From an uncultured Cohaesibacter sp. (GTDB taxonomy: Bacteria > Pseudomonadota > Alphaproteobacteria > Rhizobiales > Cohaesibacteraceae): DNA of 64,000 nt. A program made the position numbers and the translations under genes. Numbering within the stretch: position 1 is the first letter of the stretch; every line of letters starts with the position of its first letter. Shown here piece by piece: positions 1,932-46,216 of the stretch. The stretch is taken from contig NZ_OY761553.1 of NCBI RefSeq assembly GCF_963664735.1, forward strand, positions 4,878,408 through 4,942,407, read 5' to 3'. Under the pieces are notes generated by a model. The model worked only from the letters and a program-made list of their open reading frames with translations, searched no databases and had not been told where the DNA came from.

Positions 1932-3329
1932 TTAGTATCTTTGATTGAACCTTTTCACTTTGTTGCCTCCAAAGATCACGCTTGAAGGGTCTTTTTCCAA
2001 CTTGTCTACGGCTCCTTCAACGCGCTTTATTGTGCGTCTTGCATCGGAAACCATCGCTTCAACCTCTCTCAAGCCTCGACCCGAGAATCGGGCAAGGCCA
2101 TTGGAGATTTCATCTGCGCGGCTGTCAAATTTGTCTGCCACACTGCGAATAGACCTTGCTGCCAGAGTGACTTCTTCGATAACGCCTTTGCCTCCCTCTT
2201 CATCGGAGAGAATACCATCGACTTTGCCCAAGATGCCATCAATTCGCTTGGACGAATTGTTCAGGCGGGCAGCAAGTTCCTTGGCGTCGGTCACGATTGC
2301 GTTGAAATCCTCCGTCCGGGTGGCCATGGATTGAGAGAAAGTATTGATATTCGCGGACGCCATTTTCGCATTTGCCAGAATAGCATCAATGTCGCTTGAG
2401 GATTCTTCCAGAGAACTTGCAAAGGACTGCAAGGAACTGACCGCAGAGCGGATTACTTCAGGATCTACACTTTCAACCAGTTTGTTGATTCTGCCCAAAG
2501 AGCCATTGAGGTTGGTCGAGAATTCATTGATCCCCTTGGCAGCTTCAGACGCATCGGCAACGATGGTATCGAACTTGTCCGAGGTTGAAACCAGATTGTC
2601 GCTGAATTTCTCGATATTGGAAACACTGGTCTTGATGCTTTGAGGATCGACCGAGGCGAGCAATGTGTCTGCACGATCGCTCAGTCCCTCCAGACGCTTT
2701 GACAAAGATGTCAGCCCTTTGGCCGCGTCAGACGCATCGCTGAGGAACGTACCGATATTTTCGGAGTTGTCGTTAAGGGCGGTTGTGAAATTCTCGATAT
2801 TCTTGATTGTCGTTGCTACGCCATCCTTGTTGTTGTCGACGACATCTTCGACCTTGGACAAGACCCGATCAGCACGGGACATGATCTGCCTTGCTCCTTT
2901 CATCAAATCTTCAAATGACGAGCTTTTGGCAATCAACTCCGGAACCTTATTCTGATCGAGAAGATCGGGAAGATCAGGGCTGCCGCCCTTTATTTCGATG
3001 GTGCCGACACCTGTCAGCCCCTGAAAAGACAGGCTGACGTCACTATCGCTCTTGAGCGGGATATCCGAGAAGACTTGCAGGCTTGTTTTTACATAGCGGG
3101 GATTATTGGGGTCATATTCCAGTTTTTGAACAGAGCCCACCTTGATGCCATTGAACATAACCGCTCCACCGCGGTTGAGGCCAGCAACAGAACCTTCAAA
3201 GCGCACGATGACCGCTTTCGTTGGCCGCGCCTCATCATATTTGGCAATCCAGTAAATGAAGCCAAACCCGACTGCTGTCAGAATCAGTGTGAACAGGCCG
3301 ATGGCCACATAATTGGCTTTTGTTTCCAT
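1932..3329 (-). CDS. MlaD-type MCE domain protein
   Basis: Periplasmic substrate-binding subunit of an Mla-type phospholipid transporter. One N-terminal membrane helix (about residues 8-28) is followed by a single MCE beta domain (about 38-115) with the usual GLNRGGAVMFNGIKVG stretch. The rest, to residue 465, is a long polar helical region of alternating Asp/Ser/Asn-rich segments with a repeated short pattern (DASEAAKGI, DASDAAKGL), likely coiled coil. E. coli MlaD is about 180 residues, so the helical tail is much longer and may extend through the periplasm as in PqiB or YebT-like proteins. It starts three bases after the ATPase gene stops, which indicates one transcript. Confidence 0.9.
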   Translation of the reverse strand: METKANYVAIGLFTLILTAVGFGFIYWIAKYDEARPTKAVIVRFEGSVAGLNRGGAVMFNGIKVGSVQKLEYDPNNPRYVKTSLQVFSDIPLKSDSDVSLSFQGLTGVGTIEIKGGSPDLPDLLDQNKVPELIAKSSSFEDLMKGARQIMSRADRVLSKVEDVVDNNKDGVATTIKNIENFTTALNDNSENIGTFLSDASDAAKGLTSLSKRLEGLSDRADTLLASVDPQSIKTSVSNIEKFSDNLVSTSDKFDTIVADASEAAKGINEFSTNLNGSLGRINKLVESVDPEVIRSAVSSLQSFASSLEESSSDIDAILANAKMASANINTFSQSMATRTEDFNAIVTDAKELAARLNNSSKRIDGILGKVDGILSDEEGGKGVIEEVTLAARSIRSVADKFDSRADEISNGLARFSGRGLREVEAMVSDARRTIKRVEGAVDKLEKDPSSVIFGGNKVKRFNQRY

Positions 3330-3332
3330 GTT

Positions 3333-4145
3333 TCAGCTCTTGTCCCATTGTCTGATAGCGCGTTTGCCAGTGAAATAGCTTTTGATCCACGGATGCGTAT
3401 TCTTCTGCAATTCATGCATGGATCCGATTGCCAGAACTCGGCGCTCTGCAAGAACGGCGATTCTGTCGCAAGCCTGGCTAAGGCTATCCAAATCATGAGT
3501 TACCATAAAAACGGTCAGACCCAAAGTGTCTCTCAGGGTCGAAATCAATTCATCGAATTCTTCAGCACTGATCGGATCCAGACCCGATGTTGGCTCGTCC
3601 AGAAATAGCAGTTGCGGGTCAAGCGCCAGAGCGCGTGCGAGTGCTGCGCGCTTGATCATGCCGCCAGAAAGTTCTGAAGGAAATTTATGCGCGGCATCAG
3701 GCGTCAGCCCGACCAGTTCCAGTTTGGATATGGCCAGCTCGTCCATCAATCTTTGCGGCAGCGAATAATATTCCCGCATGGGCACCTGAATATTCTGCAA
3801 AACAGAGAGGGATGAAAAGAGAGCCCCATGCTGGAAGAGAACGCCGAGGCGCCGTTCGATTGCCAATTGTGCCGAGCGGGACAGGTGTTCCATATCCTGC
3901 CCAAACATGATGAACTGTCCGGTCTGTCGCTGCAGCAAGCCAAGAATACTGCGCAAGAGAACACTTTTGCCGGTTCCCGATGCGCCTACGATGCCCAGAA
4001 TTTCACCGTGCTTTACATCCAGATCCAGATTTTCCAGAACAAGCCGTGAATCGAAGCCGACGGTCAGTCCGCGCACAGACAATAGGGGGGAAGCATCCTT
4101 GCTGTTGTTTGGTCCGCTCTGATATTGCTGGTTGTGTGCTGGCAT
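3333..4145 (-). CDS. ABC transporter ATP-binding protein, MlaF-like
   Basis: Cytoplasmic ATPase that energises the MlaE permease. It has a Walker A motif GASGTGKS, a Q-loop region after LFQHGALF, the ABC signature LSGGMIKRAALARALA, Walker B LLFLDEPTSGLD and an H-loop MVTHDLDS, all in the expected order for a 270-residue ATPase. The Ile-Lys after the signature glycines is typical of MCE-associated ATPases. The gene lies between the permease (ending at 4156, a gap of 10 bases) and mlaD (gap of 3 bases), so the three form a translationally tight operon. Confidence 0.92.
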   Translation of the reverse strand: MPAHNQQYQSGPNNSKDASPLLSVRGLTVGFDSRLVLENLDLDVKHGEILGIVGASGTGKSVLLRSILGLLQRQTGQFIMFGQDMEHLSRSAQLAIERRLGVLFQHGALFSSLSVLQNIQVPMREYYSLPQRLMDELAISKLELVGLTPDAAHKFPSELSGGMIKRAALARALALDPQLLFLDEPTSGLDPISAEEFDELISTLRDTLGLTVFMVTHDLDSLSQACDRIAVLAERRVLAIGSMHELQKNTHPWIKSYFTGKRAIRQWDKS

Positions 4146-4155
4146 GGCTTTCTCC

Positions 4156-5310
4156 CTAAAAGCCTATCGCGGCGAAGAATATTGCAAATAGGCCATCGAC
4201 CATTACCATTAGGAAAATGGATTTGACGACTGCTGCTGTTGTTCTTCTGCCCAGGCTTTCGGCGCTACCGCCCACTTGCAATCCTTCGCTGCAAGAGATC
4301 AGGGCAATAATCAACGCCATGAATGGAGCCTTTATGACGCCGACGAGAAATGTATTGATGGCAACAGCTTCTCTTAGCCAGTTGATATAGGTAATCGGCG
4401 AGATGTCGGAATAGGCCCAGAGCAGCATGCCGCCGCCGACAAGTGCGGCAACATTTGCCACCAGCCCCAACAAGGGCAGTGCGATAATCAGGGCAATGAC
4501 GCGCGGCGCAATGAGCACTTCAATGATATTCAGCCCCATGACGCGCATGGCATCAATTTCTTCGCGCATTTTCATGGAGCCGATTTCCGCAGTGAATGCA
4601 CTGCCGGATCGTCCGGCAACGAGAATGGCTGTCAACAATATGCCGACTTCGCGAAGAACCAGAATGCCCACCAAATCAATGACGAAGGTTTCTGCACCAA
4701 ATTTACGGAGTTGAAACGCGCCTTGCTGGGCAACGATGGCGCCAACAAGAAAGGACATCAGTGCCACAATCGGCACGGCTTTCAGTCCTGTCTGTTCCAT
4801 GTGGTGAACAATGGACGTGAAGCGCAGTCTTCTGGGATTGATAAAATTCTTGATGAGGCTTGTAACGATCTCTCCGGTTAGAAATGCCAGTATCCTTATA
4901 TCCTTGAAAATTTCGACGACATCTTCGCCGGTCTTTTCAAGCACAGATATAAAGAAATTCTGGTTCTCTTGCGCGGGAGGGGGCGTCTGGTTCGTTGCGT
5001 CAACCGCATTGAACAGTGTTACGTGGTCAGGCTTGATTGGGTCTGCATGGGTGAGGTCCAATTTCAAGCCGCGCAGGAGGCGTATGATCACCCACGCTCC
5101 AGACGTGTCCAAGGCGCAAAGGCCAGAAAGCTCGATCTTCCTGACATCTATATTATTCTTGATGGCCGTGTCTACCTGCTGGTCCGCGGCCGCTAGTGTA
5201 TCAATTGTCCAGTCGCCGGATAGATAAAGCGTAGCTGGCTCGCCATCATTATGGGCCTGCAAAAGAGGCGATTGCCCTGAACCGGCAATGTCTTGGTCTT
5301 TTGGAGCCAT
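4156..5310 (-). CDS. STAS-MlaE fusion permease of an Mla-type lipid transporter
   Basis: Inner-membrane permease of the lipid transporter. Residues 25-115 form a STAS-like domain (the role played by separate MlaB in E. coli) with IELSGLCALDTSGAWVI around the usual Asp-Thr-Ser-Gly loop. Residues 130-384 form the MlaE domain with five to six hydrophobic helices, including the conserved REVGILLTAILVAGRSGSAF block and the EEIDAMRVMG coupling segment. At 384 residues it is the usual size of the fused STAS-MlaE form. It is the first gene of the operon; the next gene upstream, an MFS transporter, ends 184 bases away. Confidence 0.9.
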   Translation of the reverse strand: MAPKDQDIAGSGQSPLLQAHNDGEPATLYLSGDWTIDTLAAADQQVDTAIKNNIDVRKIELSGLCALDTSGAWVIIRLLRGLKLDLTHADPIKPDHVTLFNAVDATNQTPPPAQENQNFFISVLEKTGEDVVEIFKDIRILAFLTGEIVTSLIKNFINPRRLRFTSIVHHMEQTGLKAVPIVALMSFLVGAIVAQQGAFQLRKFGAETFVIDLVGILVLREVGILLTAILVAGRSGSAFTAEIGSMKMREEIDAMRVMGLNIIEVLIAPRVIALIIALPLLGLVANVAALVGGGMLLWAYSDISPITYINWLREAVAINTFLVGVIKAPFMALIIALISCSEGLQVGGSAESLGRRTTAAVVKSIFLMVMVDGLFAIFFAAIGF

Positions 5311-6819: not shown

Positions 6820-8340
6820 ATGAGCAAACCAATGCCACCTTCCCCGCTGAGACAAGAGGACTATCTGGCGATTGAATCCGCCGTGATGGAAACTGCCAGA
6901 GGACGCTGGTTTCTTGCGGAATATGCCCGTAGAAATCGGAATGCAGATACAGATACCTTATTGACGGCGATCGATAAACTGGAAAAAACGATCGTACGTG
7001 AAAGAGCTCCGTCTTCCTTGATGCATCAGGTGCGCATGGATCTGGCTGATATGGCCAGTGCCATAGATCGCACCAAGAAGGAAATCGCTCAGATCAAGCA
7101 TGAGGACAATGAAGGATCCGAACGCTTCGAACGGGCGACGATGGAACTGGATGCCATTGTATCTCAGACAGAAAGTGCTACCGGCGACATTCTGAGCGCC
7201 GCTGAAAAAATACAGGAATTTGCCTGGACGCTGCGCGAACAGGGCGCAGATAACGACAAGTGTGATGAACTGGACATGGAAGCGACCAACATCTATATGG
7301 CGTGTTCGTTCCAGGACTTGACCGGTCAACGTATCCGTAAAATTGTGGATGCCATGCGCTATGTAGAGAGCCGCATCAATTCCATGATTGATATCTGGGG
7401 CTTTGAGTCCGATGGAGTTGAAGTCGACCAGAACCATCATCGAAGCCATGATGTGCGGCCTGATGCCCACTTGCTCAATGGTCCGGCCTTGGCTGGAGAA
7501 GGGGTTGATCAGGGCGATGTTGACATGCTGTTCGATAATGCAAATCTGCATGAACAAGCCGATCAGGATGATGTTGACGCCCTTTTTGACAATGCTCCAA
7601 CCATCGACAATGAAGCAGACGACCTGCCTGAGGAAATGAGTCAGGATGCTGCGGATGCCTTGTTTGCGACAGATTCTGTATCAAGCGATGAAGATGAAGT
7701 TGACTTGAGCGAAGCCGAGGATGCTTCTGAGGCGGCTGCGGATGTTGAAGAAGAATTCGTCGAGGATGCCGAGTTCGAGGCAGTCGCTGAAGACGAGGCC
7801 GCCGCTGAAGATGCTTTTGCCGCTGAAGTTGACGATAATGTTTCAGAAGAGGCTGCTTCCGAATCCGAGAACGTCGTGGAAGATGCGACTGATGCAGAAG
7901 AAATGGTTTCTGTACAGGATGGCGACGTCGAATTTGTTGATATGCAGGATCTCGATTGGGCCTCTGCTTCTGAAGCTTCCGAATATCTGGAAACTGTTGA
8001 ACCTGAAGCCCAGCAAGAGACCGAGGCTGCGTCTGAAGAAGCGACTGAGGTTGAAGCCACCTCGGAGCTTGATGATTTTGATGCGCTGGAAGTCGAAGCC
8101 GAGGGGGATGTATTCGAAACAGCATCTGCCGATGATGAAGATGGCAAGCTCGAAGCTGCTGGTGAGGTAGATCCCGAGGCTGAGTCTGATGCTGAGATGG
8201 AAGCCATGATGGACGGTGAGGCCGATATCTTTGCCTCCGCAGATGTGTTCGATTCTGCTTTGGATGAAGAATTGGCGTCCAGTGACGAGCAAGAAGAAGA
8301 GCCAATGGATCTGCGTGATCGTGTGGCTCAGTTTAGCTGA
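6820..8340 (+). CDS. cheZ: CheZ-type CheY-phosphate phosphatase with long acidic tail
   Basis: Chemotaxis phosphatase that should speed dephosphorylation of CheY-P. Residues 1-195 form the helical CheZ core. The catalytic block SFQDLTGQRIRKI carries D166 and Q170, matching D143 and Q147 of E. coli CheZ in QDFQDLTGQ. A linker with LLNGP (residues 218-222) is followed by three acidic repeats, DQGDVDMLFDN (230-240), DQDDVDALFDN (248-258) and SQDAADALFAT (274-284). These resemble the E. coli CheZ C-terminal CheY-docking peptide SQDQVDDLLDSLGF. Residues 290-500 are Glu/Asp/Ala-rich and probably disordered, making the protein (506 residues) more than twice E. coli length. It converges with the giant repeat gene across a shared terminator. 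Confidence 0.85.
   Translation: MSKPMPPSPLRQEDYLAIESAVMETARGRWFLAEYARRNRNADTDTLLTAIDKLEKTIVRERAPSSLMHQVRMDLADMASAIDRTKKEIAQIKHEDNEGSERFERATMELDAIVSQTESATGDILSAAEKIQEFAWTLREQGADNDKCDELDMEATNIYMACSFQDLTGQRIRKIVDAMRYVESRINSMIDIWGFESDGVEVDQNHHRSHDVRPDAHLLNGPALAGEGVDQGDVDMLFDNANLHEQADQDDVDALFDNAPTIDNEADDLPEEMSQDAADALFATDSVSSDEDEVDLSEAEDASEAAADVEEEFVEDAEFEAVAEDEAAAEDAFAAEVDDNVSEEAASESENVVEDATDAEEMVSVQDGDVEFVDMQDLDWASASEASEYLETVEPEAQQETEAASEEATEVEATSELDDFDALEVEAEGDVFETASADDEDGKLEAAGEVDPEAESDAEMEAMMDGEADIFASADVFDSALDEELASSDEQEEEPMDLRDRVAQFS
7507..7671 (+). repeat. Three tandem CheY-docking-like peptide repeats inside cheZ
   Basis: These codons encode residues 230-284 of the CheZ-like protein. Three units with the pattern D/S-Q-x-D-h-D-x-L-F follow one another at spacings of 18 and 26 residues. 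Each resembles the single C-terminal docking peptide of E. coli CheZ (DQVDDLLDSLGF) and the EIDALL-type N-terminal peptide of FliM. The third copy has Ala in place of the second hydrophobic residue. Confidence 0.7.
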
Positions 8341-8488: not shown

Positions 8489-11400
8489 TTAGCCTAGGCG
8501 GCCGCTGGCATGGGCAAGCATCGTATATATCTTGCCGGTATCCGAGGTGAGATAGTTCATCGTAGTGGTGCCGTCACGATCTTTTCTTGAAATATCGTCC
8601 AGTATCCGTTCGAAGTCACCTACATAGCGGTTTACCGTGTTGCGGAAGTCGGTGTCGCGCTGATAGCGCATGCGTACATCCTCGAAGGTCTGTTGACCTT
8701 TGAGAGTGTAGAGGCGACGGGTAAAGCTGCCCCCTTCGCCGCGACGATAGCTTTCCCAAGCTTCCGACTGATTGTTTGTGTCAATACCGCGGATGATATC
8801 CTTGGAGATTGGCGCCAGAGCTTCGGCATCTCCCGGCTGAGGGATATTGTCTTCCGGCTGGGATGCGCGGCGCAGCAGATCGGAAACCCAGCCGCCAGAG
8901 CGACCTTCGTGATCATCCCGTTGAGCCGGTTGAGCATAGTTGCTTGCGGGCTGCTGAGGCTGTTGCTTTGGCTGTTCAGGCTGGCGCATTGGCTGTTGCT
9001 GCTGAACCGGCTGACTTGGGCGCTGGTTCATGGAGGCCTGAGCCGTGTTGCGCTGCTGATTGGAGCGATCAGAAGAGGACACGGTATCAAACATGTTGCC
9101 GTGACGCTGAACAACGCGCGACAGTTCCTTCAGAGCATCGATTTGCTCGGAAACGACACGGCGCATTGCTCCGGTTGCTTCTCTGGTTTCTGTCGGAAGT
9201 TCGGTCAGACCCTGCTTCAGTTCGGCCCGTGTGACGTCCAGATCACGTTTGATTTCTTGCGTGATCGCACGGATGTCCTGCGTTGCCTGTTCGAAGCGGC
9301 TGTTTGCATCTGCCATCGACTGAGCCATTTCTTCGCTCATCTCGCGCTGTACTGCACGGATGGACTCTGCTGCTCTTCTTCCTTCAGAAGCGGCATTGAT
9401 GCGCAGTTGTTCCAGCTGATCCATTACTTCCTTGGAGACGCCTTCGGTGCTCTGGCTGAGCAGCATTCCAACATCTCTTGCACGTCCCTCTGCGGTGCTG
9501 AGGGTGCTTGCAATAATCGAAGTGAAGTTGTTGAGGACATTTTCGATAGCCTCGGTACGCTGAGCCAGATCTTCGGTCATGCTGGAGAGCATTGCGCGGC
9601 GTTCTTCGACCGTGCCTTCCAGTCGATCATTGGTGTTTTCCATGATCCGGGTCGTATTGACCAGTGCTGTGGCCTGCTCTTCAAATTTGTCTGTAAGAGA
9701 GGAGACCTGCCCAAGGATGCTGTTGGAAACATCGCGCAGATCATGCACATGGCCGGTGAGTTGGTTCGTGGAATTACCAGCCTCATTGACAACCGTTTCG
9801 ACGACATTGCGGAACTGGCTGGTCTGTTCAGACAAGCTGGTTTCGATGGTCGAAAGGCTATGACCTGCATTGAGCAGAAGCTCTGACAAGGTTTCGTTGG
9901 CGTGTTTCAGGCGCTCAACGATTTCCGTGCCATCAGCACGCAACAGCTCGTTGGTGCTGCTCATGGACTGGCTTGCCTCGTCGGAAGCTATGCGCATGGC
10001 TTCCACAAGACGCTTGTTCGAGGTGTCGAGCTTGATGATCGCATCGTGGCTGCTTTGTGCAATCGACTTGACCAGGTTGCTGGACGAGGTTTCGAGAGCA
10101 ATTCTGGCCTGATCCGAGCTGATGGTAAGGGCTTCCACCGTGCGCTTGGAGCTTTCGTCCATCGCAGTGAGTGTCTCGGTTGATTTCTCGCCGATGGTTT
10201 CGACCGCTTGACGAGAGCTTTCCGTGAGAGCCGAAACGGCGCGTCTGGACCCTTCATCAAGAGCAGCCAGGGTGCCGCTCGATGTTTCACTCAGTGCGTG
10301 GACTGCACGCCGTGACGTATTCTCAAATGCGGCCAAGGCGCTGCTTGAGTTCTCCGTAAGGGCAGAAACCGTCCGCTGAGATGTTTCTTCAAAGGCTGCC
10401 AGCGTCTCGCTTGAGCTATCGCTAAGAGCCTTGGCGGCCAATTCTGCACTTGAGGAGAGAGCAAACTGCGTACGGGACGTGCTTTCTTCAAGCATGCTTA
10501 CTGCTTGCTGAGCGCTGTCGGACATGGTTTGTGCCGCACGTTCGGTGCTTGCTGTCAACGAGCCAACAGAACGATCGGTGTTTTCTGTGATCGCCTGAAC
10601 GGCGCGGCTTGTGCTCTCGTTGAGCGTATCCGTTGCCCGGGAGCTGTTTTCACTGATGGCGCTGACTAGCTGTTCGCCAGTTTGAGCCAGAGTTTGTGAG
10701 GCGCGTGCGCTTTCCTGAGCCACTGCACGAGCAATCTCGCCACCGCGGCTGGACAGGCTGTGAATGATGCTTTCTCCGGCCTTCTGGAAGGTCTCGGTGA
10801 TGCTTTCAGAACGGCTGTCCAATGCATGGACAACTGCGTTGCCTTTTTCATCCAGAATGGAGGAAAGCTCGGCAGAGCGAGAGCCCAGAACCGCATTGAA
10901 GCTTTCTGTCTTTTCGGTGATCTCTGCGCTTGCTGTTGTTAGGGTGGATGCAAGAGCATCACGAGCCTTGGCGCTTTCGGTCGCAAAGTTGGTAGAGATT
11001 GCGTTCAGGCGATCATTGAGGATGGCCTCGATCTGAGCCGACCGGCTGTCGAGAGTTTCGGCCACTTCAAAGACCTTGCTGCCCAGAGATACGTTGATCT
11101 CGGCAACGCGATCTGACAGGGTTTCCGTAAGCTCGTGGGCCTGACGTGACAGGGTTTCTCCAACCAGAGTAAGGCGCTTGTCCATGCTCTCGTTGATATC
11201 ATTCTGGCCTTGTGAGTAGGCCGTGGCGATATCTCTGGTGCGCTCAAGCAGGGTTTCGTTGATGTTGCGCGCACGATTGTCGAGGGTCTCGTCGAGCTTG
11301 CTGGTTCTTTCTTCCAGCGCCGAGTTGAGCGTATCTGCCTTGGTTGCGAAATTCATCGTCAGGCTGGATACGCTGTCTTCGAAGCCGCTGAGGCGTGTGG

Positions 11401-14050
11401 CAATTTCCTGTTCGAAATTCTCGGTGCGGCTTGTAAGAGCGTTTGCCACTTCCTCGGCGCGCGCCGAAACGCTGACGGTAAAGCCTTCCAGCCGGGTATC
11501 GAGAAGGGTTTCGATTTCTCCTGCGCGTGCAAACAGGGTCTGGTCAAGCGAGTTGATGCGCTGATCCATGGACTGGCTGAGCGAGTCAAGTCTATCACCC
11601 AGATGGCTGACAAGGTTGGTGCCGCCAACCGTGATGATTTCGTCGAATGCCTTGACGCGCTCTTCCATTGCCTTGCGAATATCTTCGCTCTGGCCTTGAA
11701 GGGCGTTGGTGAGTTCACCACCGGCATTCTCGAACAGTTCCTTGACCTTGTTGCCGCGCTGGGCAATGACCTTGGCGATTTCGGTACCGACCATGGCCAG
11801 ACGCTCGGTAACTTCCATGGAGCGAGAATTGAGTGCATCCGTTGCCTTGCCGGTTGCCTGTTCGAGATTTTCCGACATGGCCTTGGATTGGGATTCAAGC
11901 ACATTGTTCATGCTGCTTGTCCGCTCATCCAGCATGGAGCCAAGATTGTTGGCGTGGGCTTCGAGCTGCTCGTTGAGTTCGCCACCCTTGACTGCAACCG
12001 TGTGATGAATGCGGTCGGCAGTGGTGTCCAGTTTGCTGGAAAGCTGCTCGCCCTGCGAGGACAGTGTTTCGGAAATATGCGTGCCGGTTTCCGTCATGCG
12101 ATGGGTGAGAGTATCGCCGGTTCTGGAAATCGTCTGGGCAATGTTGGTACCTGTTTCGTCCAGTTTCTCGTTGATCTCGGTTCCACGCAGGGAAAGATCG
12201 ACAAGAAGAGCGTCGCCAGTGCCTTTGAGAGCCTGGGAAACTTCGGAAGACCGTTCCGTGATCGCTGTAACGATTTCGGTGCCCTGAGTGCGGATATTTT
12301 CGGCAACAGTCGAGCCGGTTTCCGACATGGAACGCGTCATCGTCGTGCTGATTTCGGAGAGGCTGCCGGTAACTGCCGTGCCGATTTCTCTCAGTTCCGA
12401 GGTGATAGAACCGCCGGTTTGGGCAAGATTGGTCGTTACATCCGAACCGAATGTCTTGAGGTTGTCGGTCAGGGATTGGCCCGTCGTGGCGATATTTTCC
12501 GTGACTTCGGTGCCGATGGTTTTGAGCTCGTTGCTGAGAGAACCGCCGGTGTAAGCCAGATTTGCGGTCACTTCTTCGCCAATCGTTCTGAATTCGCCGG
12601 TCAGGCTGCTTCCTGTATTGGACAGGTTCGCGGTGACTTCTGAGCCAACATTTCTCAGCTCGCTGGTGAGGGCGCTGCCTGTTGTCGCGAGATTTTCTGT
12701 AACCTCGGAGCCGATGGACTGCAGCTCACTGGTAAGAGCATTGCCTGTCGTTGACAGATTTGCGGTTACGTCGTTGCCGATGGACTGCAGACTGGTGTTG
12801 AGACCTGCTCCAACCTCGGCGATATTGTTCGTCACGGTTTCGCCGGTTTGAGACAGTGTAGAGGTCAGTTCTTGTCCTGCGCCAATGAAGCGATCGGTGA
12901 CTTCATGTCCGATGCTTGCCAACTGGCTGGTCAGGTCGCTGCCCGTCATTTCCAGTTTCTGGGAAATATCTGAACCGGACATGGTCAACTGATTGGTGAT
13001 CGATTGGCCTGCGTCGGTCAGCGACTCGGTAACATTCGCACCAGTCGTTGACAAACGGTCAACCAGATCGGAGCCGCGATTGGAGAGCACATTGACCATT
13101 GTCTCGCCAGCGTTGGCCAGTGCGATGGTGATCTGCTCGCCTTTTTCGGCCAGCGAAAGGGTAACGCGTGAGCCAGCGTCGGAAACGCTCTTGGAAATGG
13201 ACTCGCTGGTGGTGTTGAGCTCATCGGAGAGGCTCGTGTGAGCGCCGGAAATTGATGCTCTGACGCGTTCGGAGTTGGTTACGATGGCTTCACGCTGGGT
13301 GATCAATTCGTCGATCAGTGAGCGGATGCGCAGTTCGTTTTCCGTGTAGGCGCGTTCCAGCGAGGAAACCTCGTTGTGCACCATGACTTCCAGTTCGGAA
13401 GCCCGTGCAAGCGCTCGTTCGATGCCGTCACTCATGGAGGCCACTTCGCGGCGGATGGCCTGACCCACATTGACGACAGACTCTTTGGCCACATTTTCAG
13501 GCTCAACCAGGCGCATGGCGACTTGCGTCATTGCGTTTGAAACCTGGCGCATTTCATGAGCACGGATGACGATGTACGCCATCATGAAAAATAGAATGAC
13601 AGGTAGGAAAATTCCGGCGAGTGCGGCTAGAGCAGCCGGAGAATTCATCAGGGAGGCAAACCCGTCTTGTGCAATCTGCTCACCACCGAAGCCCATAAAG
13701 AATATGGCTCCGCCAATGGCTACCCAGAACAGCGATAGTATTGTGGCAAACATGTAAGGCGCAGAGCTTGGTGGCTGCTGCAGGGAATGCAACAAATGTC
13801 CGACCGACTGCTGATCGTCGTTTGCAGGCCTTGGTTTGACTTTTTTACTTCGGGATTCCCCTTTGGATGAGGAGCCGTCAGCCTTGGACGCGACGTTGTC
13901 GCTCGCGTTATCCTTGGCTTTGTTAGCATTGCCTTTGGACCTGGATTCATTTGCCTCATCGGAGACGTCGAAATCCATTTTCAAAGCGTCTTCAACCGCC
14001 GACAGAGCCGCTTCTGTCGGATCCTGAATCTTTGGAGACTTCGTTACCAT
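8489..14050 (-). CDS. Giant membrane-anchored 11-residue-repeat (hendecad) protein
   Basis: 1853 residues, function unknown. Residues 1-95 are charged and low-complexity. Two membrane helices follow (about 100-121 and 141-163) with a short loop, then VIRAHEMRQ, so the long remainder should be cytoplasmic. From residue 271 to 897 I count 57 consecutive 11-residue units (typical GNDVTANLSTT, hydrophobic at unit positions 4 and 8, Gly at 1). A 7-residue insertion follows, then 42 more units (905-1366, typical TSRAVQAITEN), then another 7-residue insertion. Weaker helix continues to about 1650. A Gln/Pro-rich linker (about 1660-1710) leads to a compact conserved-looking C-terminal domain (about 1715-1853). 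Such proteins are often labelled apolipoprotein-like or kinesin-like from weak repeat hits; I do not accept those functions. Confidence 0.9.
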   Translation of the reverse strand: MVTKSPKIQDPTEAALSAVEDALKMDFDVSDEANESRSKGNANKAKDNASDNVASKADGSSSKGESRSKKVKPRPANDDQQSVGHLLHSLQQPPSSAPYMFATILSLFWVAIGGAIFFMGFGGEQIAQDGFASLMNSPAALAALAGIFLPVILFFMMAYIVIRAHEMRQVSNAMTQVAMRLVEPENVAKESVVNVGQAIRREVASMSDGIERALARASELEVMVHNEVSSLERAYTENELRIRSLIDELITQREAIVTNSERVRASISGAHTSLSDELNTTSESISKSVSDAGSRVTLSLAEKGEQITIALANAGETMVNVLSNRGSDLVDRLSTTGANVTESLTDAGQSITNQLTMSGSDISQKLEMTGSDLTSQLASIGHEVTDRFIGAGQELTSTLSQTGETVTNNIAEVGAGLNTSLQSIGNDVTANLSTTGNALTSELQSIGSEVTENLATTGSALTSELRNVGSEVTANLSNTGSSLTGEFRTIGEEVTANLAYTGGSLSNELKTIGTEVTENIATTGQSLTDNLKTFGSDVTTNLAQTGGSITSELREIGTAVTGSLSEISTTMTRSMSETGSTVAENIRTQGTEIVTAITERSSEVSQALKGTGDALLVDLSLRGTEINEKLDETGTNIAQTISRTGDTLTHRMTETGTHISETLSSQGEQLSSKLDTTADRIHHTVAVKGGELNEQLEAHANNLGSMLDERTSSMNNVLESQSKAMSENLEQATGKATDALNSRSMEVTERLAMVGTEIAKVIAQRGNKVKELFENAGGELTNALQGQSEDIRKAMEERVKAFDEIITVGGTNLVSHLGDRLDSLSQSMDQRINSLDQTLFARAGEIETLLDTRLEGFTVSVSARAEEVANALTSRTENFEQEIATRLSGFEDSVSSLTMNFATKADTLNSALEERTSKLDETLDNRARNINETLLERTRDIATAYSQGQNDINESMDKRLTLVGETLSRQAHELTETLSDRVAEINVSLGSKVFEVAETLDSRSAQIEAILNDRLNAISTNFATESAKARDALASTLTTASAEITEKTESFNAVLGSRSAELSSILDEKGNAVVHALDSRSESITETFQKAGESIIHSLSSRGGEIARAVAQESARASQTLAQTGEQLVSAISENSSRATDTLNESTSRAVQAITENTDRSVGSLTASTERAAQTMSDSAQQAVSMLEESTSRTQFALSSSAELAAKALSDSSSETLAAFEETSQRTVSALTENSSSALAAFENTSRRAVHALSETSSGTLAALDEGSRRAVSALTESSRQAVETIGEKSTETLTAMDESSKRTVEALTISSDQARIALETSSSNLVKSIAQSSHDAIIKLDTSNKRLVEAMRIASDEASQSMSSTNELLRADGTEIVERLKHANETLSELLLNAGHSLSTIETSLSEQTSQFRNVVETVVNEAGNSTNQLTGHVHDLRDVSNSILGQVSSLTDKFEEQATALVNTTRIMENTNDRLEGTVEERRAMLSSMTEDLAQRTEAIENVLNNFTSIIASTLSTAEGRARDVGMLLSQSTEGVSKEVMDQLEQLRINAASEGRRAAESIRAVQREMSEEMAQSMADANSRFEQATQDIRAITQEIKRDLDVTRAELKQGLTELPTETREATGAMRRVVSEQIDALKELSRVVQRHGNMFDTVSSSDRSNQQRNTAQASMNQRPSQPVQQQQPMRQPEQPKQQPQQPASNYAQPAQRDDHEGRSGGWVSDLLRRASQPEDNIPQPGDAEALAPISKDIIRGIDTNNQSEAWESYRRGEGGSFTRRLYTLKGQQTFEDVRMRYQRDTDFRNTVNRYVGDFERILDDISRKDRDGTTTMNYLTSDTGKIYTMLAHASGRLG
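9953..13240 (-). repeat. Coding region for 99 eleven-residue repeats
   Basis: This DNA encodes residues 271-1366 of the giant protein. In-frame 33-base units repeat throughout, and many adjacent pairs form 66-base (22-residue) super-units, as in residues 414-545 where IGxEVTxNL alternates with TGxxLTxEL. The unit phase changes only once inside the span, by an extra seven codons (residues 898-904), and again just after it (1367-1373). The counts close exactly on the 1853-residue length. Confidence 0.88.
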
Positions 14051-14611: not shown

Positions 14612-14944
14612 ATGGCCATGAATACACAAAAATGCAGTCTTGATCTTGCTCACCTGTCACAACAGACGATGGGGGATTTGGACCTGCAGAGGCAGGTTTT
14701 ATCCATATTCGTCGAGCAAATGAAACTCAAAATCCCCCAATTGGCTCCACAAATGGAGGGGCTTGGTGAACTCGCCCATAGCATCAAAGGGTCCGCAAAG
14801 GGAATAGGCGCGTGGCAGGTTGCGAAAGCTGCAGAGGAAGTGGAAAAGTCGAGCGGTGATCCATCTGCGGAAATTGAAGCCTTGCTTCTCGCAGTCGATG
14901 TGTCTTTGCAGGATATCGAGACCTTGTTGCAGTCAGATGGTTGA
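14612..14944 (+). CDS. Hpt domain phosphotransfer protein
   Basis: Single-domain histidine phosphotransfer protein of 110 residues that relays phosphate between a hybrid kinase and a response regulator in the cytoplasm. The motif ELAHSIKGSAKGIGA carries the phospho-accepting His at residue 56, in the expected four-helix layout. GAGG at 14604-14607 lies 4 bases from the ATG at 14612 and 10 bases from a second in-frame ATG at 14618, so either may be the start. It is much smaller than ChpT, the Hpt-like partner of CckA, so it is probably a different relay component. Partners cannot be named, though a CheZ-like gene and cckA are in the same window. Confidence 0.85.
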   Translation: MAMNTQKCSLDLAHLSQQTMGDLDLQRQVLSIFVEQMKLKIPQLAPQMEGLGELAHSIKGSAKGIGAWQVAKAAEEVEKSSGDPSAEIEALLLAVDVSLQDIETLLQSDG

Positions 14945-15064: not shown

Positions 15065-15385
15065 ATGCCTAAAATTACCTTTATCACATTTGATGAAACG
15101 AAATACGAAGTGGATGCCAAAGATGGTGCGACGGTGATGGAAACCGCCATCAAGAATGGCGTTCCCGGAATCGAAGCCGAGTGTGGGGGCGCCTGTTCTT
15201 GTGCGACCTGTCATGTATATGTTGATGAAGCCTGGGCTGAAAAGACCGGTGAGCCAGGCGCCATGGAAGAGGATATGCTCGATTTCGCTCAGGATGCGGA
15301 TGACCGCAGCCGTCTGTCGTGCCAGATCAAGATGAGTGATGAGCTGGATGGGCTGGTTGTTCGAATTCCGGAAAGTCAGGCCTGA
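15065..15385 (+). CDS. 2Fe-2S ferredoxin, adrenodoxin/FdxB type
   Basis: Small electron carrier of 106 residues that passes electrons to a monooxygenase or iron-sulfur assembly partner. The four cluster ligands follow the adrenodoxin/putidaredoxin pattern: C40, C46, C49 (C-x5-C-x2-C inside [20 protein letters not shown]) and C86 in RLSCQI. C44 is an additional non-ligand cysteine. Length and termini match the family. The gene stands alone with its own strong terminator at 15421. No neighbouring cytochrome P450 or reductase is present, which favours a housekeeping role such as Fe-S assembly. Confidence 0.92.
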
Positions 15386-42259: not shown

Positions 42260-45200
42260 GTGATGGGACTCTGGAGAGCTTTAATTTCGAAGATGGCTGA
42301 GCAGATAGCACCCACACGCTTGCTGTGGCGGGGGAAGCTGCGTGATCGTCAAACTTTGGCGCCTTGCCAGCGGTTATCTTCTCTTTTCTTGTTGCCGTTT
42401 ATGCTTGTTTCCCTCTCGTTTGCGGCCATGGCTCAGGATGCTGCGGGGCTGAACGGGGACGGGGAAAGCGGCAAGCTTGAAATTGTCACGACCAAGCAAG
42501 AGGGCTTTGGCCGCATCATCCTGAATTTTGTCGGGCGCAATTTGCTTCCTGGTTATTCGGTCAAGCAGGACAACAGCATTTTTGTTGTTCGTTTTGACAA
42601 TTCCGTTCAGGCGACACCGGTTACAAATCTGCCATCCATCTTGCCCGATTACATAACTGTCGCTCGGCTAGACCCTGATGGTAAAGGGCTTCGTATTGCT
42701 TTCAAACCGAATGTCCGGGTCAATACCATGGAAGCCGGCGAGAAGCTTTTTGTGGATATTTTGCCTACGAGCTGGCAGGGACTGCCGCCCTCTTTGCCGC
42801 AGGATGTGGTTTTGGAACTTGCCAAGCGCGCGGAAGAAGCTTTGCGTCTGGCCCGATCTCTGGAACAATCCAAACTGGCAACCCGCACGAATCCAAAGCT
42901 GGATTTGCGTGTGGGCGATCATCCCACTTTTACCCGAATTGCGTTTGTCTGGAATGTGCCGTTTGACTCGACTTTCCAGCGACAGGGGCAGGAAGTTCGT
43001 GTCGATTTTAATCACAAGGCTGATGTTGATCTCTCCAAGCTTCGTGCTGAATTACCCTCGCTCGTCAATGATATAAGTATGAACCATGATGGGGGCGGGA
43101 CGAAATTTTCAATCATTGTCTCCCCCACTTCAGACGTTCGTGCTTTTCGGGAAGACGATTCCTACGTTGTCGATATCACTGGTGATAAGGTCTTGTTTGA
43201 CGCCAAAGGGGCCGAGGAGACCGTTACACGCGCAATATCGACTACAGGCGACAGCGGTGTCGTCGTCGCCAAGGGTGCAGGCGATGCGCCGACCATGAAT
43301 GCTGGTGACTGGCTGGCTGACAAGACGAGAGACGACGAGAGTGGTATTATTCTGGGGCCAGGGCCGCAAGGCGAAAACCAGGATAATACGCTTTTTGCCA
43401 ATTCACAGGTAACCGAGCCGATTGATCCCAACGCCTCCGGTGCAGGGTGGCAGAATGGGCAAAATGCTTCTGGGCAAAGAGATACCCGTACGTCTGACCC
43501 TCTGCAGAAAGATTTGGCAATTCCTCCGGAAACGAGCGCAACCCAACCTGCCAACAGTGGTTTGAATGCGACCTCAAGCCCGATTATGGGCGATACTCAG
43601 CCGCAGTCACCCTCTCAGGAAACGGTCCAACAAGATGCCCCCCCAACGGCATTGGCTCCAGAGCAGGCCGGGCAAGACCAGATTTTGCCGGGAGAAGACC
43701 GTATTTCGGGCGAGGGTAACGCCGAGCAGATGTCGGGTGCCATTCCTGATCTGACCGCACAAATGCTTCCTGTTGAAGCCAAAGCATTTGGCCGGTCGGT
43801 TCGGCTCTATTTTCCGTTCAAGGATCCTACGGCATCAGCTGTCTTCAAGAAGAGCGGCGTTATCTGGGCTGTTTTTGATACCGCATTGGGACTGGATGTA
43901 TCGGCTGCGCGCGCCCAGTTGGCTCCTATTGCTGACGATCTGGAAGTTTGGCGCTCCGGTCGTACGGCCGTGTTGCGCATACCGCTGAAGAATTCGCGCC
44001 TCGTTACTTTTTCACCTGAAGGTTATGGCTGGTTACTGACGATCGGCGACATGATCGTTGAGCCGACCAAGCCGCTTCATATGGCCAGAACCAAGATTAG
44101 TGGTGGCAGATCTGCCATGCGCGTCAAGTTTGAGGGTTCGGGCAGTATTCTTAAATTGAGGGACCCCGGAACAGGCGAGAATCTGCATGTGGTGACCGGC
44201 CTTGGGCCAGCAAGAGGATTTGTCAAATCACAGCAGCTGGTTGATTTTTCCACTTTGGTTTCTGCTCATGGCATTGCGCTAACGGAAAATGTGGATGATC
44301 TGCAAGTCGCGCGAGATGGCGGATTTATCTATATCAGTTCCAGCCGGGGGCTTACCCTTTCCAACTCTGGCACCGTCAAGGTTGATGTGAGCGGATTGAC
44401 CAGTGAAGCGAGCAAGGTCAGGGAGACATATCTCAATCTGGAGTCCTTGATTGCCAAAACCCCGATACAGTTTGCGCGCGAGCGACAGGCTCTTGAAGCC
44501 AAGGTGTCACAGTTTGATGACCTGATGGCAATTCAGAGCGAAATGGCGCTGGCAAAGCTGTTGCTGGCCAACGGTTATGCTTCTGAAGCGCTGGGGCATT
44601 TGCAGATTATCGAGGATTCTGCTCCGGAGTTTGCCCGCGGGCGTGGGTTTCGCACGCTCTATGCTGCCACAGAGTTGTTTGCAGGGCGACCTGACTCCGC
44701 TTTTCGCCGTTTGAATCACCCTGAGTTTGATAATGATCCAGATGCTTCTGTTTGGCGAGGATTGGCCGCAGCCCGGTCTGGACGGTGGCGTGAGGCCGAG
44801 GATGCTCTCGATCTGGCATCGACCGTTTCTCAGGACTACAGCGTTCATGTGCGCAATATGATGCTCCTTGACGGTGTTGAGATTTCGCTTCTTGATCAGC
44901 AATTTGGCAGCGCATCTGCTGCACTTGCCGAAGTGAACCCGGCCTATCTGAATCAGGAAGGTGTTGCGCGTTACAATTTGCTGCGCGGGAAAATCGCCGT
45001 TGCCCGCAACAAGTCTGCTGAAGCATTGGAAGCCTTCGAAACTGCGCGCGAGACCAAATATCTTCCGATTTCGACAGATGCCTGGTTGCAGGAAATCAAG
45101 CTGAAAAATCAGGAAAAGCAGATTACCAATGATCAGGCAATCGATGAGTTGGAGGGGTTGACCACCATTTGGCGCGGTGATGAAGTCGAGCTCAACGCCT

Positions 45201-46216
45201 TGCGCACCCTGGCGCATCTGTATGTCGACAAAGGTGAGTATCGAAACGCCTTTGAAACATTGAAAGCTGCGACGAGTTCAAATGCTGCCTCTGATGTTAC
45301 ACGCGTGTTGCAGGAAGAAATGAACGGCGTATTTTCTTCGCTGTTCCTTGATGGCAAGGTCGATGAGCTTTCCGCTATCAAGGCTCTTTCCCTTTACTAT
45401 GATTTTCGTGAGCTGACACCGGTCGGTCGTCGGGGCGATGAGATGGTTCGGCGATTGGCAGACAAACTGGTCGAAGTCGATCTGCTCGATCGGGCTGAAG
45501 AACTGTTGAAGCATCAGGTGGACAATCGCCTGAAGGGTGCCGCCCGTTCCCAGATTGCCGCAGATCTGGCGGTAATCTATCTGCTTGATCGCAAGCCTAA
45601 CATGGCCCTTGATGTGTTGCGTCGGACAAGACAATCCCAGCTGCCTTTGTCGCTGGAGCGCCAGCGGCGTTTGGTGGAAGCCAAAGCTCTGGCTGAGCTG
45701 AACAAGGTGGATCTGGCTCTTGATCTTGTCAAACCGTTGCAGGGCAGCGATGTTGAACAGCTCAGAGCGGATATCTTGTGGCGTGCAAAGCGTTGGCAAG
45801 AGGTGGCCGAGCAAATAGAGCAAATGATGGGAGACCGCTGGAGCGTGCCTGATGCCTTGGACAAGGACGAGCAGACAAATATCTTGCGTGCCGGTATCGC
45901 TTACAGCCTGTCGGACGACCGGCTGGGGCTTGATCGTTTGCGCCGCAAATATGCAAAGATGATGTCTGACACGCCGGTTTCAGGTGCTTTTGATGTGGTG
46001 ACATTGCCAATCGAGCAACGCAACGGGCAGGAATTCCAGTCGATTGCTCAGGAAATAGCGGGTATCAGCACGATGGAGCGGTTCCTCAAGGAATATCGGA
46101 ACCGATATCTGCAGCCAAACAGTGCTGCGTCTGACAATATGGCGAATGGGGCCGCTCAGCCGGGCGGTGGGGCGAACAATGCCGCGCCGAACAATAACTC
46201 GGCTCCGCAAGTCTAG
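42260..46216 (+). CDS. Large TPR-containing exported protein of the flagellar locus
   Basis: 1318-residue exported protein. A long N-terminus leads to a hydrophobic signal (about 44-58, LFLLPFMLVSLSFAAMAQD). Residues 70-330 and 520-680 contain two beta-rich AMIN-like stretches (KQEGFGRIILNFVGRNLLP; AFGRSVRLYFPFKDPTAS) separated by a Pro/Gln/Asn-rich linker. Residues 740-1260 are helical TPR-type repeats (LAKLLLANGYASEALGHLQI and similar). The tail is Asn/Ala/Gly-rich. It sits 120 bases after motE in the same orientation. I would expect a periplasmic scaffold for the motor or rings, but the family has no established function I can name. Confidence 0.75.
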   Translation: MMGLWRALISKMAEQIAPTRLLWRGKLRDRQTLAPCQRLSSLFLLPFMLVSLSFAAMAQDAAGLNGDGESGKLEIVTTKQEGFGRIILNFVGRNLLPGYSVKQDNSIFVVRFDNSVQATPVTNLPSILPDYITVARLDPDGKGLRIAFKPNVRVNTMEAGEKLFVDILPTSWQGLPPSLPQDVVLELAKRAEEALRLARSLEQSKLATRTNPKLDLRVGDHPTFTRIAFVWNVPFDSTFQRQGQEVRVDFNHKADVDLSKLRAELPSLVNDISMNHDGGGTKFSIIVSPTSDVRAFREDDSYVVDITGDKVLFDAKGAEETVTRAISTTGDSGVVVAKGAGDAPTMNAGDWLADKTRDDESGIILGPGPQGENQDNTLFANSQVTEPIDPNASGAGWQNGQNASGQRDTRTSDPLQKDLAIPPETSATQPANSGLNATSSPIMGDTQPQSPSQETVQQDAPPTALAPEQAGQDQILPGEDRISGEGNAEQMSGAIPDLTAQMLPVEAKAFGRSVRLYFPFKDPTASAVFKKSGVIWAVFDTALGLDVSAARAQLAPIADDLEVWRSGRTAVLRIPLKNSRLVTFSPEGYGWLLTIGDMIVEPTKPLHMARTKISGGRSAMRVKFEGSGSILKLRDPGTGENLHVVTGLGPARGFVKSQQLVDFSTLVSAHGIALTENVDDLQVARDGGFIYISSSRGLTLSNSGTVKVDVSGLTSEASKVRETYLNLESLIAKTPIQFARERQALEAKVSQFDDLMAIQSEMALAKLLLANGYASEALGHLQIIEDSAPEFARGRGFRTLYAATELFAGRPDSAFRRLNHPEFDNDPDASVWRGLAAARSGRWREAEDALDLASTVSQDYSVHVRNMMLLDGVEISLLDQQFGSASAALAEVNPAYLNQEGVARYNLLRGKIAVARNKSAEALEAFETARETKYLPISTDAWLQEIKLKNQEKQITNDQAIDELEGLTTIWRGDEVELNALRTLAHLYVDKGEYRNAFETLKAATSSNAASDVTRVLQEEMNGVFSSLFLDGKVDELSAIKALSLYYDFRELTPVGRRGDEMVRRLADKLVEVDLLDRAEELLKHQVDNRLKGAARSQIAADLAVIYLLDRKPNMALDVLRRTRQSQLPLSLERQRRLVEAKALAELNKVDLALDLVKPLQGSDVEQLRADILWRAKRWQEVAEQIEQMMGDRWSVPDALDKDEQTNILRAGIAYSLSDDRLGLDRLRRKYAKMMSDTPVSGAFDVVTLPIEQRNGQEFQSIAQEIAGISTMERFLKEYRNRYLQPNSAASDNMANGAAQPGGGANNAAPNNNSAPQV

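Follow-up and report, generated by a model that had tools for sequence, protein, structure and literature searches.

The window analysed here, a 64,000-nucleotide stretch of Cohaesibacter DNA, carries a gene on its minus strand (8489..14050, stop codon included, ATG start) whose 1853-aa product is built for much of its length from 11-residue units. Within its own 4.94 Mb single-contig genome the protein has a single match, which is itself.

Hendecads between a membrane anchor and a C-terminal domain

The protein opens with a region of 99 residues (13754..14050; all features of the gene lie on the minus strand) that combines a conserved SPKIQDPTEAALSAVEDALKLDF-like motif at residues ~5-27 with a variable low-complexity stretch. 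Two transmembrane helices are predicted by hydropathy at residues ~100-118 (13697..13753) and ~144-162 (13565..13621), where AlphaFold2 places helices at 97-122 and 138-182. An earlier sequence-only reading of this DNA had set the rod behind two N-terminal membrane helices, and hydropathy backs this arrangement. The juxtamembrane region that follows (residues 165-259; 13274..13558) contains the most conserved stretch of the protein, GQAIRREV..M.DGIERALARA.ELE..VH.EV..LER.Y.ENE.

For the rod itself, that reading had counted 57 units without a break (271-897), the seven residues TMNFATK, 42 more units (905-1366) and a second seven-residue piece, and its arithmetic is right. Block A, with its 57 units, lies at 11360..13240, and an extra unit fits at 260-270. 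The single heptad interruption (898-904) is at 11339..11359, and the second heptad (1367-1373), placed by both the block count and a Viterbi parse, is at 9932..9952. By the column composition of the units, the stretch between the two heptads divides into B1 (19 units, 905-1113; 10712..11338), where Lys or Arg occupies position 11 in 68%, and B2 (23 units, 1114-1366; 9953..10711). The Viterbi parse, made with a family-wide unit profile, returns 57 units at 260-886, seven residues at 887-893, 43 units at 894-1366, another seven residues, and 15 further units in short runs up to residue 1589. The blocks thus give 99 hendecads and the parse 100, the heptad being placeable one unit either way. If ~100 consecutive hendecads formed a single straight helix rising 0.15 nm per residue, they would span ~166 nm.

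Position 8 is a large hydrophobic residue (ILVMFWY) in 99/99 units and position 4 in 76/99, while the best single column reached 0.51 when block 271-897 was shuffled 2000 times. The spectrum of hydrophobicity has its peak, of power 142, at 3.665 residues; the maximum in 100 shuffles was 11.1. The stripe is narrow in block A, where two columns are 98-100% hydrophobic and the remaining columns at most 21%. This block has a high content of Gly, Thr and Ser. Gly marks its position 1, as first noticed, in 67% of units, and drops there to 16% in 905-1113 and 4% in 1114-1366. The net charge of the rod is -0.5 to -0.8 per unit. In B2, position 4 is mostly Ala or Ser/Thr and large hydrophobic in 3/23 units, position 5 is hydrophobic in 70% and position 8 in 100%, Ser or Thr stands at position 1, and Ala is frequent at 4 and 7, which makes for a wider (positions 4, 5, 7 and 8) and less bulky apolar face. 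The original description of hydrophobic residues at positions 4 and 8 of each unit therefore holds for the first 76 units but fails for the last 23 (1114-1366), because of the Ala, Ser and Thr at position 4 and the hydrophobic position 5. Of the marks of a hendecad coiled coil, the 11/3 periodicity with a core at a/d/(e)/h was found.

Beyond the second heptad, a conserved helical segment of broken hendecads (1374-1654; 9089..9931) leads to a Pro/Gln-rich variable linker (1655-1718; 8897..9088; mostly pLDDT <50) and a conserved helical C-terminal domain (1719-1853; 8492..8896), for which neither Pfam nor NCBIfam has a model covering the domain. The length of residues 1350-1640 is constant across 15 other aligned sequences of the genus and family. 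In single-chain AlphaFold2 models, long helices run over 344-543 (N-terminal model) and over 1402-1552 and 1557-1654 (C-terminal model), the Pro-rich linker (~1655-1718) is modelled with low confidence, and the C-terminal domain is compact and helical, its mean pLDDT being 88-97 over 1741-1850. The global confidence of both models is low (pTM 0.34 and 0.28), and single helices at such values fit a coiled coil, a lipid-bound helix and a lone helix alike. The protein contains no Cys, Pro and Trp are absent from residues 260-1366, and the Pro-free stretch as a whole covers residues 185-1618.

Orthology with RgsE and GPR

Judged by its sequence, the window protein is orthologous to RgsE of Sinorhizobium meliloti and hence, by published homology, to GPR of Agrobacterium. 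The RgsE sequence used is from S. meliloti strain Ak57 (CP090106.1, a record labelled plasmid), in which a gene of 2089 aa annotated "kinesin" was taken as RgsE by its length, homology and neighbours; the published RgsE (SMc00190) is likewise given as 2089 aa (PMC7327166). One alignment joins residues 13-1635 of the window protein to RgsE (340 bits, E 4e-98, 25% identity), and the non-repeat ends match separately, at 42% identity for residues 1-270 (E 8e-61) and 47% for residues 1719-1853 (E 3e-49). Four genes are found near both the window gene and the S. meliloti gene. These encode an Hpt-domain protein (14612..14944, plus strand), a 2Fe-2S ferredoxin (15065..15385, plus strand), a YcjF-like protein (TIGR01620; 17606..18727, minus strand) and a YcjX-like protein (PF04317; 18724..20280, minus strand). 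In 80 named stretches of the order, matches to the window Hpt protein occur in 57 and to the ferredoxin in 78; the YcjF-like and YcjX-like genes lie near the gene in 3/3 Rhizobiaceae loci, and all four neighbours are present in these 3/3 stretches.

Two other names were considered for this protein. The kinesin annotation of the S. meliloti gene finds no motor-domain Pfam match in either the window protein or RgsE, and the NCBIfam model ZorA scores below its curated cut-off of 190 in both (34.8 bits for the window protein, 69.8 for RgsE).

The surroundings of the gene hold further observations. Convergent with it is a gene for a 506-aa protein (6820-8340, plus strand) that matches CheZ (PF04344, E 7e-9) and whose C-terminal half is very acidic; it is matched in 8/80 named stretches and in 0/3 of those from Rhizobiaceae. 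Mla-type lipid transport genes (MlaD-like, ABC ATPase, MlaE permease) lie close to the rod gene at 1932-5310 on the minus strand, and an MlaE match is present in 47/80 named stretches. Elsewhere in the window, a 1317-aa ORF (42263-46216, plus strand) has no Pfam match at E <= 1e-5.

Published work on the orthologues supplies much of the biological setting. RgsE is described as a homologue of GPR with 42% identity, and fusions verified both its membrane anchoring and its cytoplasmic location (PMC7327166), in agreement with the earlier placing of the rod in the cytoplasm. At the growth pole, GPR is reported to form a 200-nm ring with six foci, and cells without GPR lose their rod shape (PMC8262873). 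Brucella RgsE is likewise reported at the new pole (PMC9938171). The statement that the protein has no assigned function is thus overturned, GPR and RgsE being studied polar-growth proteins, while its description as a cytoskeletal or spacer element comes near the published idea of a scaffold; its further suggestion of a membrane-coating element is conjectural. GPR/RgsE, a mostly helical protein of ~2000 residues, organizes polar growth in a large bacterial order.

Repeat phase in the genus and the order

Rod segments of 13 same-genus orthologues were measured between conserved anchors, with the window rod as reference. Among length events that are not all independent, 22/22 non-zero segment differences are multiples of 11, in contrast to 1/15 in two segments beyond residue 1640. 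Gain and loss of whole units cluster at window residues 419-560 and 1145-1300, the changes are often of 22 residues, and total length spans 1616-1914 aa among the 14 same-genus proteins. Two frame-split same-genus copies, L034 (G004) and L044 (G016), were left out of these counts; the splitting of their rod gene over frames reflects either assembly error or real loss. Exceptions come from L046 and L047, which represent two further genera of the family and whose segment 750-990 differs by +37 and +15, both 4 modulo 11. In the alignment, each has 4 inserted residues next to the 7-residue piece of the window protein, after residue 896; together with that piece they would make up a whole unit. Whole-unit differences may owe something to unequal recombination among repeats as well as to selection on phase.

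Across the order, 103 proteins (14 from Cohaesibacter) parse into 10,373 units, with a median of 107 per protein, while shuffled proteins yield a mean of 1.0 unit and a maximum of 6. Of the 80 named loci, 12 were dropped for having no frame with both N- and C-terminal parts, as were the 4 from Cohaesibacter among the other 68; G005, which gave no match, G009, with a weak one, and G035, with a frame of 178 aa, were left out too. The longest run among the 103 proteins, 160 uninterrupted hendecads, is found in Blastochloris sulfoviridis (L121).

Interruptions of these runs follow a simple grammar. Counting gaps of at most 25 residues (n = 176), with longer gaps left out, 77, 64 and 23 are 7, 3 and 10 modulo 11; together, 164/176 fit whole heptads (one, two or three), compared with 3 in the opposite class, 4 modulo 11. 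Gaps of 3 residues weigh heavily in this count (56 cases, the window's longest-flanked one near residue 1520), and as many of them may be one inherited site, they are not to be taken as separate events. RgsE parses into 115 hendecads, and 10/12 of its inner interruptions are of 7, 14 or 25 residues, the remaining two being long (96 and 72). Between residues ~265 and 1450 of RgsE, 11/11 register changes are -4 (equal to +7), with mixed steps further on. Each +7 step rotates the stripe through 33 degrees, and what was column 8 in one run is thereby carried on as column 4 in the following run. The one-way bias to +7 would fit a need to lower the overtwist of an 11/3 helix relative to a relaxed one.

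These data bear on whether the repeat needs a function at all. A rod that arose as a by-product of tandem duplication, under the sole constraint of staying helical, would be expected to change within the genus by whole units, often 22 residues, as is observed, and a tandem pair of 66-bp copies (22 aa, 78% matches) is visible at 12656..12790 on the minus strand. However, this is the only tandem repeat that TRF finds in the rod DNA, from which it follows that most units are old, and yet position 8 has remained hydrophobic in every unit; the heptad fit of short interruptions across the order also speaks against such an origin, and a pure by-product appears very improbable. Length fares little better as the selected property. 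The rod might serve as a molecular ruler or spacer that sets the ring diameter or the distance from anchor to C-terminal domain, being Pro-free with an anchor at one end and a domain at the other, and the straight length of residues 185-1618 (~215 nm) is close to the published 200 nm of the ring. Against this stand the variation in length, both in the genus and among uncut frames of the order (~840 to 2940 aa), and the frequency with which units are gained and lost in two zones, which leave the ruler improbable, if slightly less so than the by-product.

The reading preferred here, and held to be probable, is that the RgsE/GPR orthologue acts at the growing pole as a scaffold, a coiled coil that is anchored in the membrane and locked in phase. 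If the published orthologues are a guide, the inner membrane would anchor the protein, most of which would lie in the cytoplasm; the protein would be located at the growing pole (as a ring in the case of GPR) and would be needed for normal rod shape and polar growth. The hydrophobic stripe at positions 4 and 8 of the first 76 units, with Gly, Ser or Thr at position 1 and often Arg, Lys or Thr at position 11, would pack helices together as a long coiled coil. Packing of helix on helix along this stripe would in turn make each rod a phase-locked scaffold between anchor and C-terminal domain, in which whole units could come or go while the phase could not. Occasional heptads (period 3.5) would absorb part of the overtwist that 11/3 (3.667) imposes relative to a relaxed helix.

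The main competitor to such packing has the rod resting on lipid in the form of an amphipathic 11/3 helix, comparable to those of exchangeable apolipoproteins or perilipin 4, and gathering lipid at the growing pole. A lipid role is favoured for GPR by Zupan et al. (PMC8262873), and it agrees with the match of the window protein to PF01442 (Apolipoprotein; 201 bits, cut-off 90), a phmmer match to ApoA-IV chains (best E 6e-7), the 11/3 period, the Gly/Thr/Ser-rich composition of block A and the wider apolar face of B2. A profile match between two 11-residue repeat families, however, requires no common ancestry; the hydrophobic face of block A is just two columns wide, the rod is net negative, and homologues outside the order mostly have a 25/7 repeat (see below). 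Apolipoproteins typically consist of 22-residue helices punctuated by Pro, unlike residues 260-1366 with 0 Pro. The perilipin 4 helix is said to lack bulky residues (PMC8064757), whereas position 8 of the rod is bulky throughout. Lipid binding as the main role of the rod is thus considered unlikely, although it is clearly ahead of a ruler. Helix-helix packing is instead indicated by the two-column stripe of block A, the net negative charge, the interruptions in whole heptads and the repeats of 25 residues seen in homologues.

Packing in fixed phase also suggests a rereading of published mutants. In GPR, the deletion A-IV-4cc removes 20 residues of predicted coiled coil and is reported to give the strongest interference among the deletions tested, exceeding removal of the whole surrounding domain (PMC8262873). 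A loss of 20 residues cannot be composed of 7s and 11s and would rotate an 11/3 stripe through 164 degrees, and the phenotype may therefore reflect broken phase rather than lost content. Three points count against such an explanation. The abstract of the same paper gives the coiled coils as 21 residues (PMC8262873), which is three heptads, yet this still makes a 98-degree turn in a pure 11/3 helix; A-IV-1cc, a 20-residue deletion in another domain, complemented well alone; and A-IV-4cc alone still gave paired foci and partial complementation (PMC8262873). More generally, the repeat grammar recasts an "apolipoprotein-like helix" as a phase rule, which allows sharp predictions for deletions.

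The wider family and known systems

According to Krol et al. (PMC7327166), every Rhizobiales family has RgsE homologues, and distant homologues occur in Emcibacterales and Rhodospirillales. A profile of the C-terminal domain (A2) matches 194/199 genomes of the order and 112/289 drawn across the class Alphaproteobacteria, and the domain thus serves as a marker; outside the order it picks up homologues in 108 sampled genomes, where the rod has another period. In the class-level sample, 111 of 113 places were taken, 108 of them outside the order, and a broken match (G139) was left out. The N-terminal profile matches 66/108 outside-order genes, 57 of them near the protein start. One outside-order gene, near Sphingomonas, has a C-terminal part with 72% identity to a Sphingomonas parapaucimobilis record.

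An 11/3 rod was found in 0/108 of the outside-order genes. Their periods are 25/7 in 68, 29/8 in 12, 18/5 in 14 and other values in 8, with 6 too short, and 87/102 rods of at least 200 residues have a lag of 25, 50 or 75 among their three strongest self-similarities; rods below 200 aa were left out of period counts (6/111 class genes and 2/40 of a later set). Within the order, 82/91 members are at 11/3 with the window genus counted once, in a sample that leans to close kin (12 at 11/3 and 8 not among the 20 other families of the first draw). Eight of the nine exceptions are short proteins of 837-1169 aa. The expectation that orthologues keep the 11-residue phase, set out in the sequence-only reading, is accordingly borne out in the genus and in most order members and breaks down outside the order. 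In a quick tree of the N- and C-terminal domains, which took in 53/108 outside genes (N-terminal match at E < 1e-5, near the start), the order forms one clade (100*), and the 11/3 state changes 3 times compared with 26 by shuffling. Lineages of this wider bacterial family thus vary sharply in their repeat, and the 11-residue rod of the window protein is one of its states.

The order has been described in print as being without MreB. At E <= 1e-25, MreB was found in 23/199 of its genomes (G020, G030, G037, G332, G337 and 18 others). Among 150 listed protein lengths, of which 13 are below 800 aa and look cut, MreB genomes account for 0/100 proteins above 1500 aa and 16/37 of those at 800-1500 aa (Fisher p 4e-11, uncorrected for kinship). 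The GPR homologues in these 16 genomes measure 815-1498 aa, the shortest perhaps cut by a contig end. Three MreB genomes carry 11/3 rods (1232-1391 aa). In a test of independent pairs, the association between MreB and length is not significant; it is a pattern of clades and not a proven link. A broader scenario would have membrane-anchored rods across the class locked, lineage by lineage, to ratios of heptads and hendecads (25/7, 29/8, 11/3), with the unipolar-growth order having converted and expanded its rod to a giant 11/3 form, and the supercoil expected to pass from left- to right-handed, as the scaffold took over shape control from MreB. This scenario is tentative, and on present data rather doubtful.

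In the literature searched, no connection of hendecads with the GPR/RgsE family was found, subscription papers, including the first GPR paper, being outside reach; the words "repeat", "11-mer" and "22-mer" are absent from the main text of PMC8262873. Known systems resemble the window protein to different degrees. Exchangeable apolipoproteins such as ApoA-IV have helical repeats that are found by the same profile, above the Pfam cut-off, but the window rod differs in having no Pro, a narrow stripe in block A and a membrane anchor. The hendecad (undecad) coiled coil of NadA3, as published, has an 11-residue coiled-coil repeat in common with the window protein; NadA3 is an adhesin, whereas the window protein forms a putative cytoplasmic rod of ~100 units, and other members of the order reach up to 179. 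TipN of Caulobacter crescentus, a new-pole protein of 882 aa compared here by its published description, has been called similar (PMC8546619) or analogous (PMC13170164) to GPR, so that this likeness is already in print.

The closest relatives remain RgsE and GPR. RgsE resembles the window protein in both ends, the rod, the two N-terminal transmembrane helices, the PF01442-scoring repeat, the C-terminal domain and the gene neighbours, and its hendecad count equals that of the window protein by the same parse. It differs in its greater length, in more heptad interruptions and in the low identity of the long alignment. GPR of Agrobacterium tumefaciens (Atu1348), likewise compared by published description, is given as 2115 aa with two N-terminal transmembrane helices, a continuous helix of 1700 aa, PF01442 domains over ~75% of its length and a Pro-rich region near the C terminus (PMC8262873). 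A long PF01442-scoring helix, a Pro-rich region and a conserved C-terminal domain are among the traits that the window protein shares with both.
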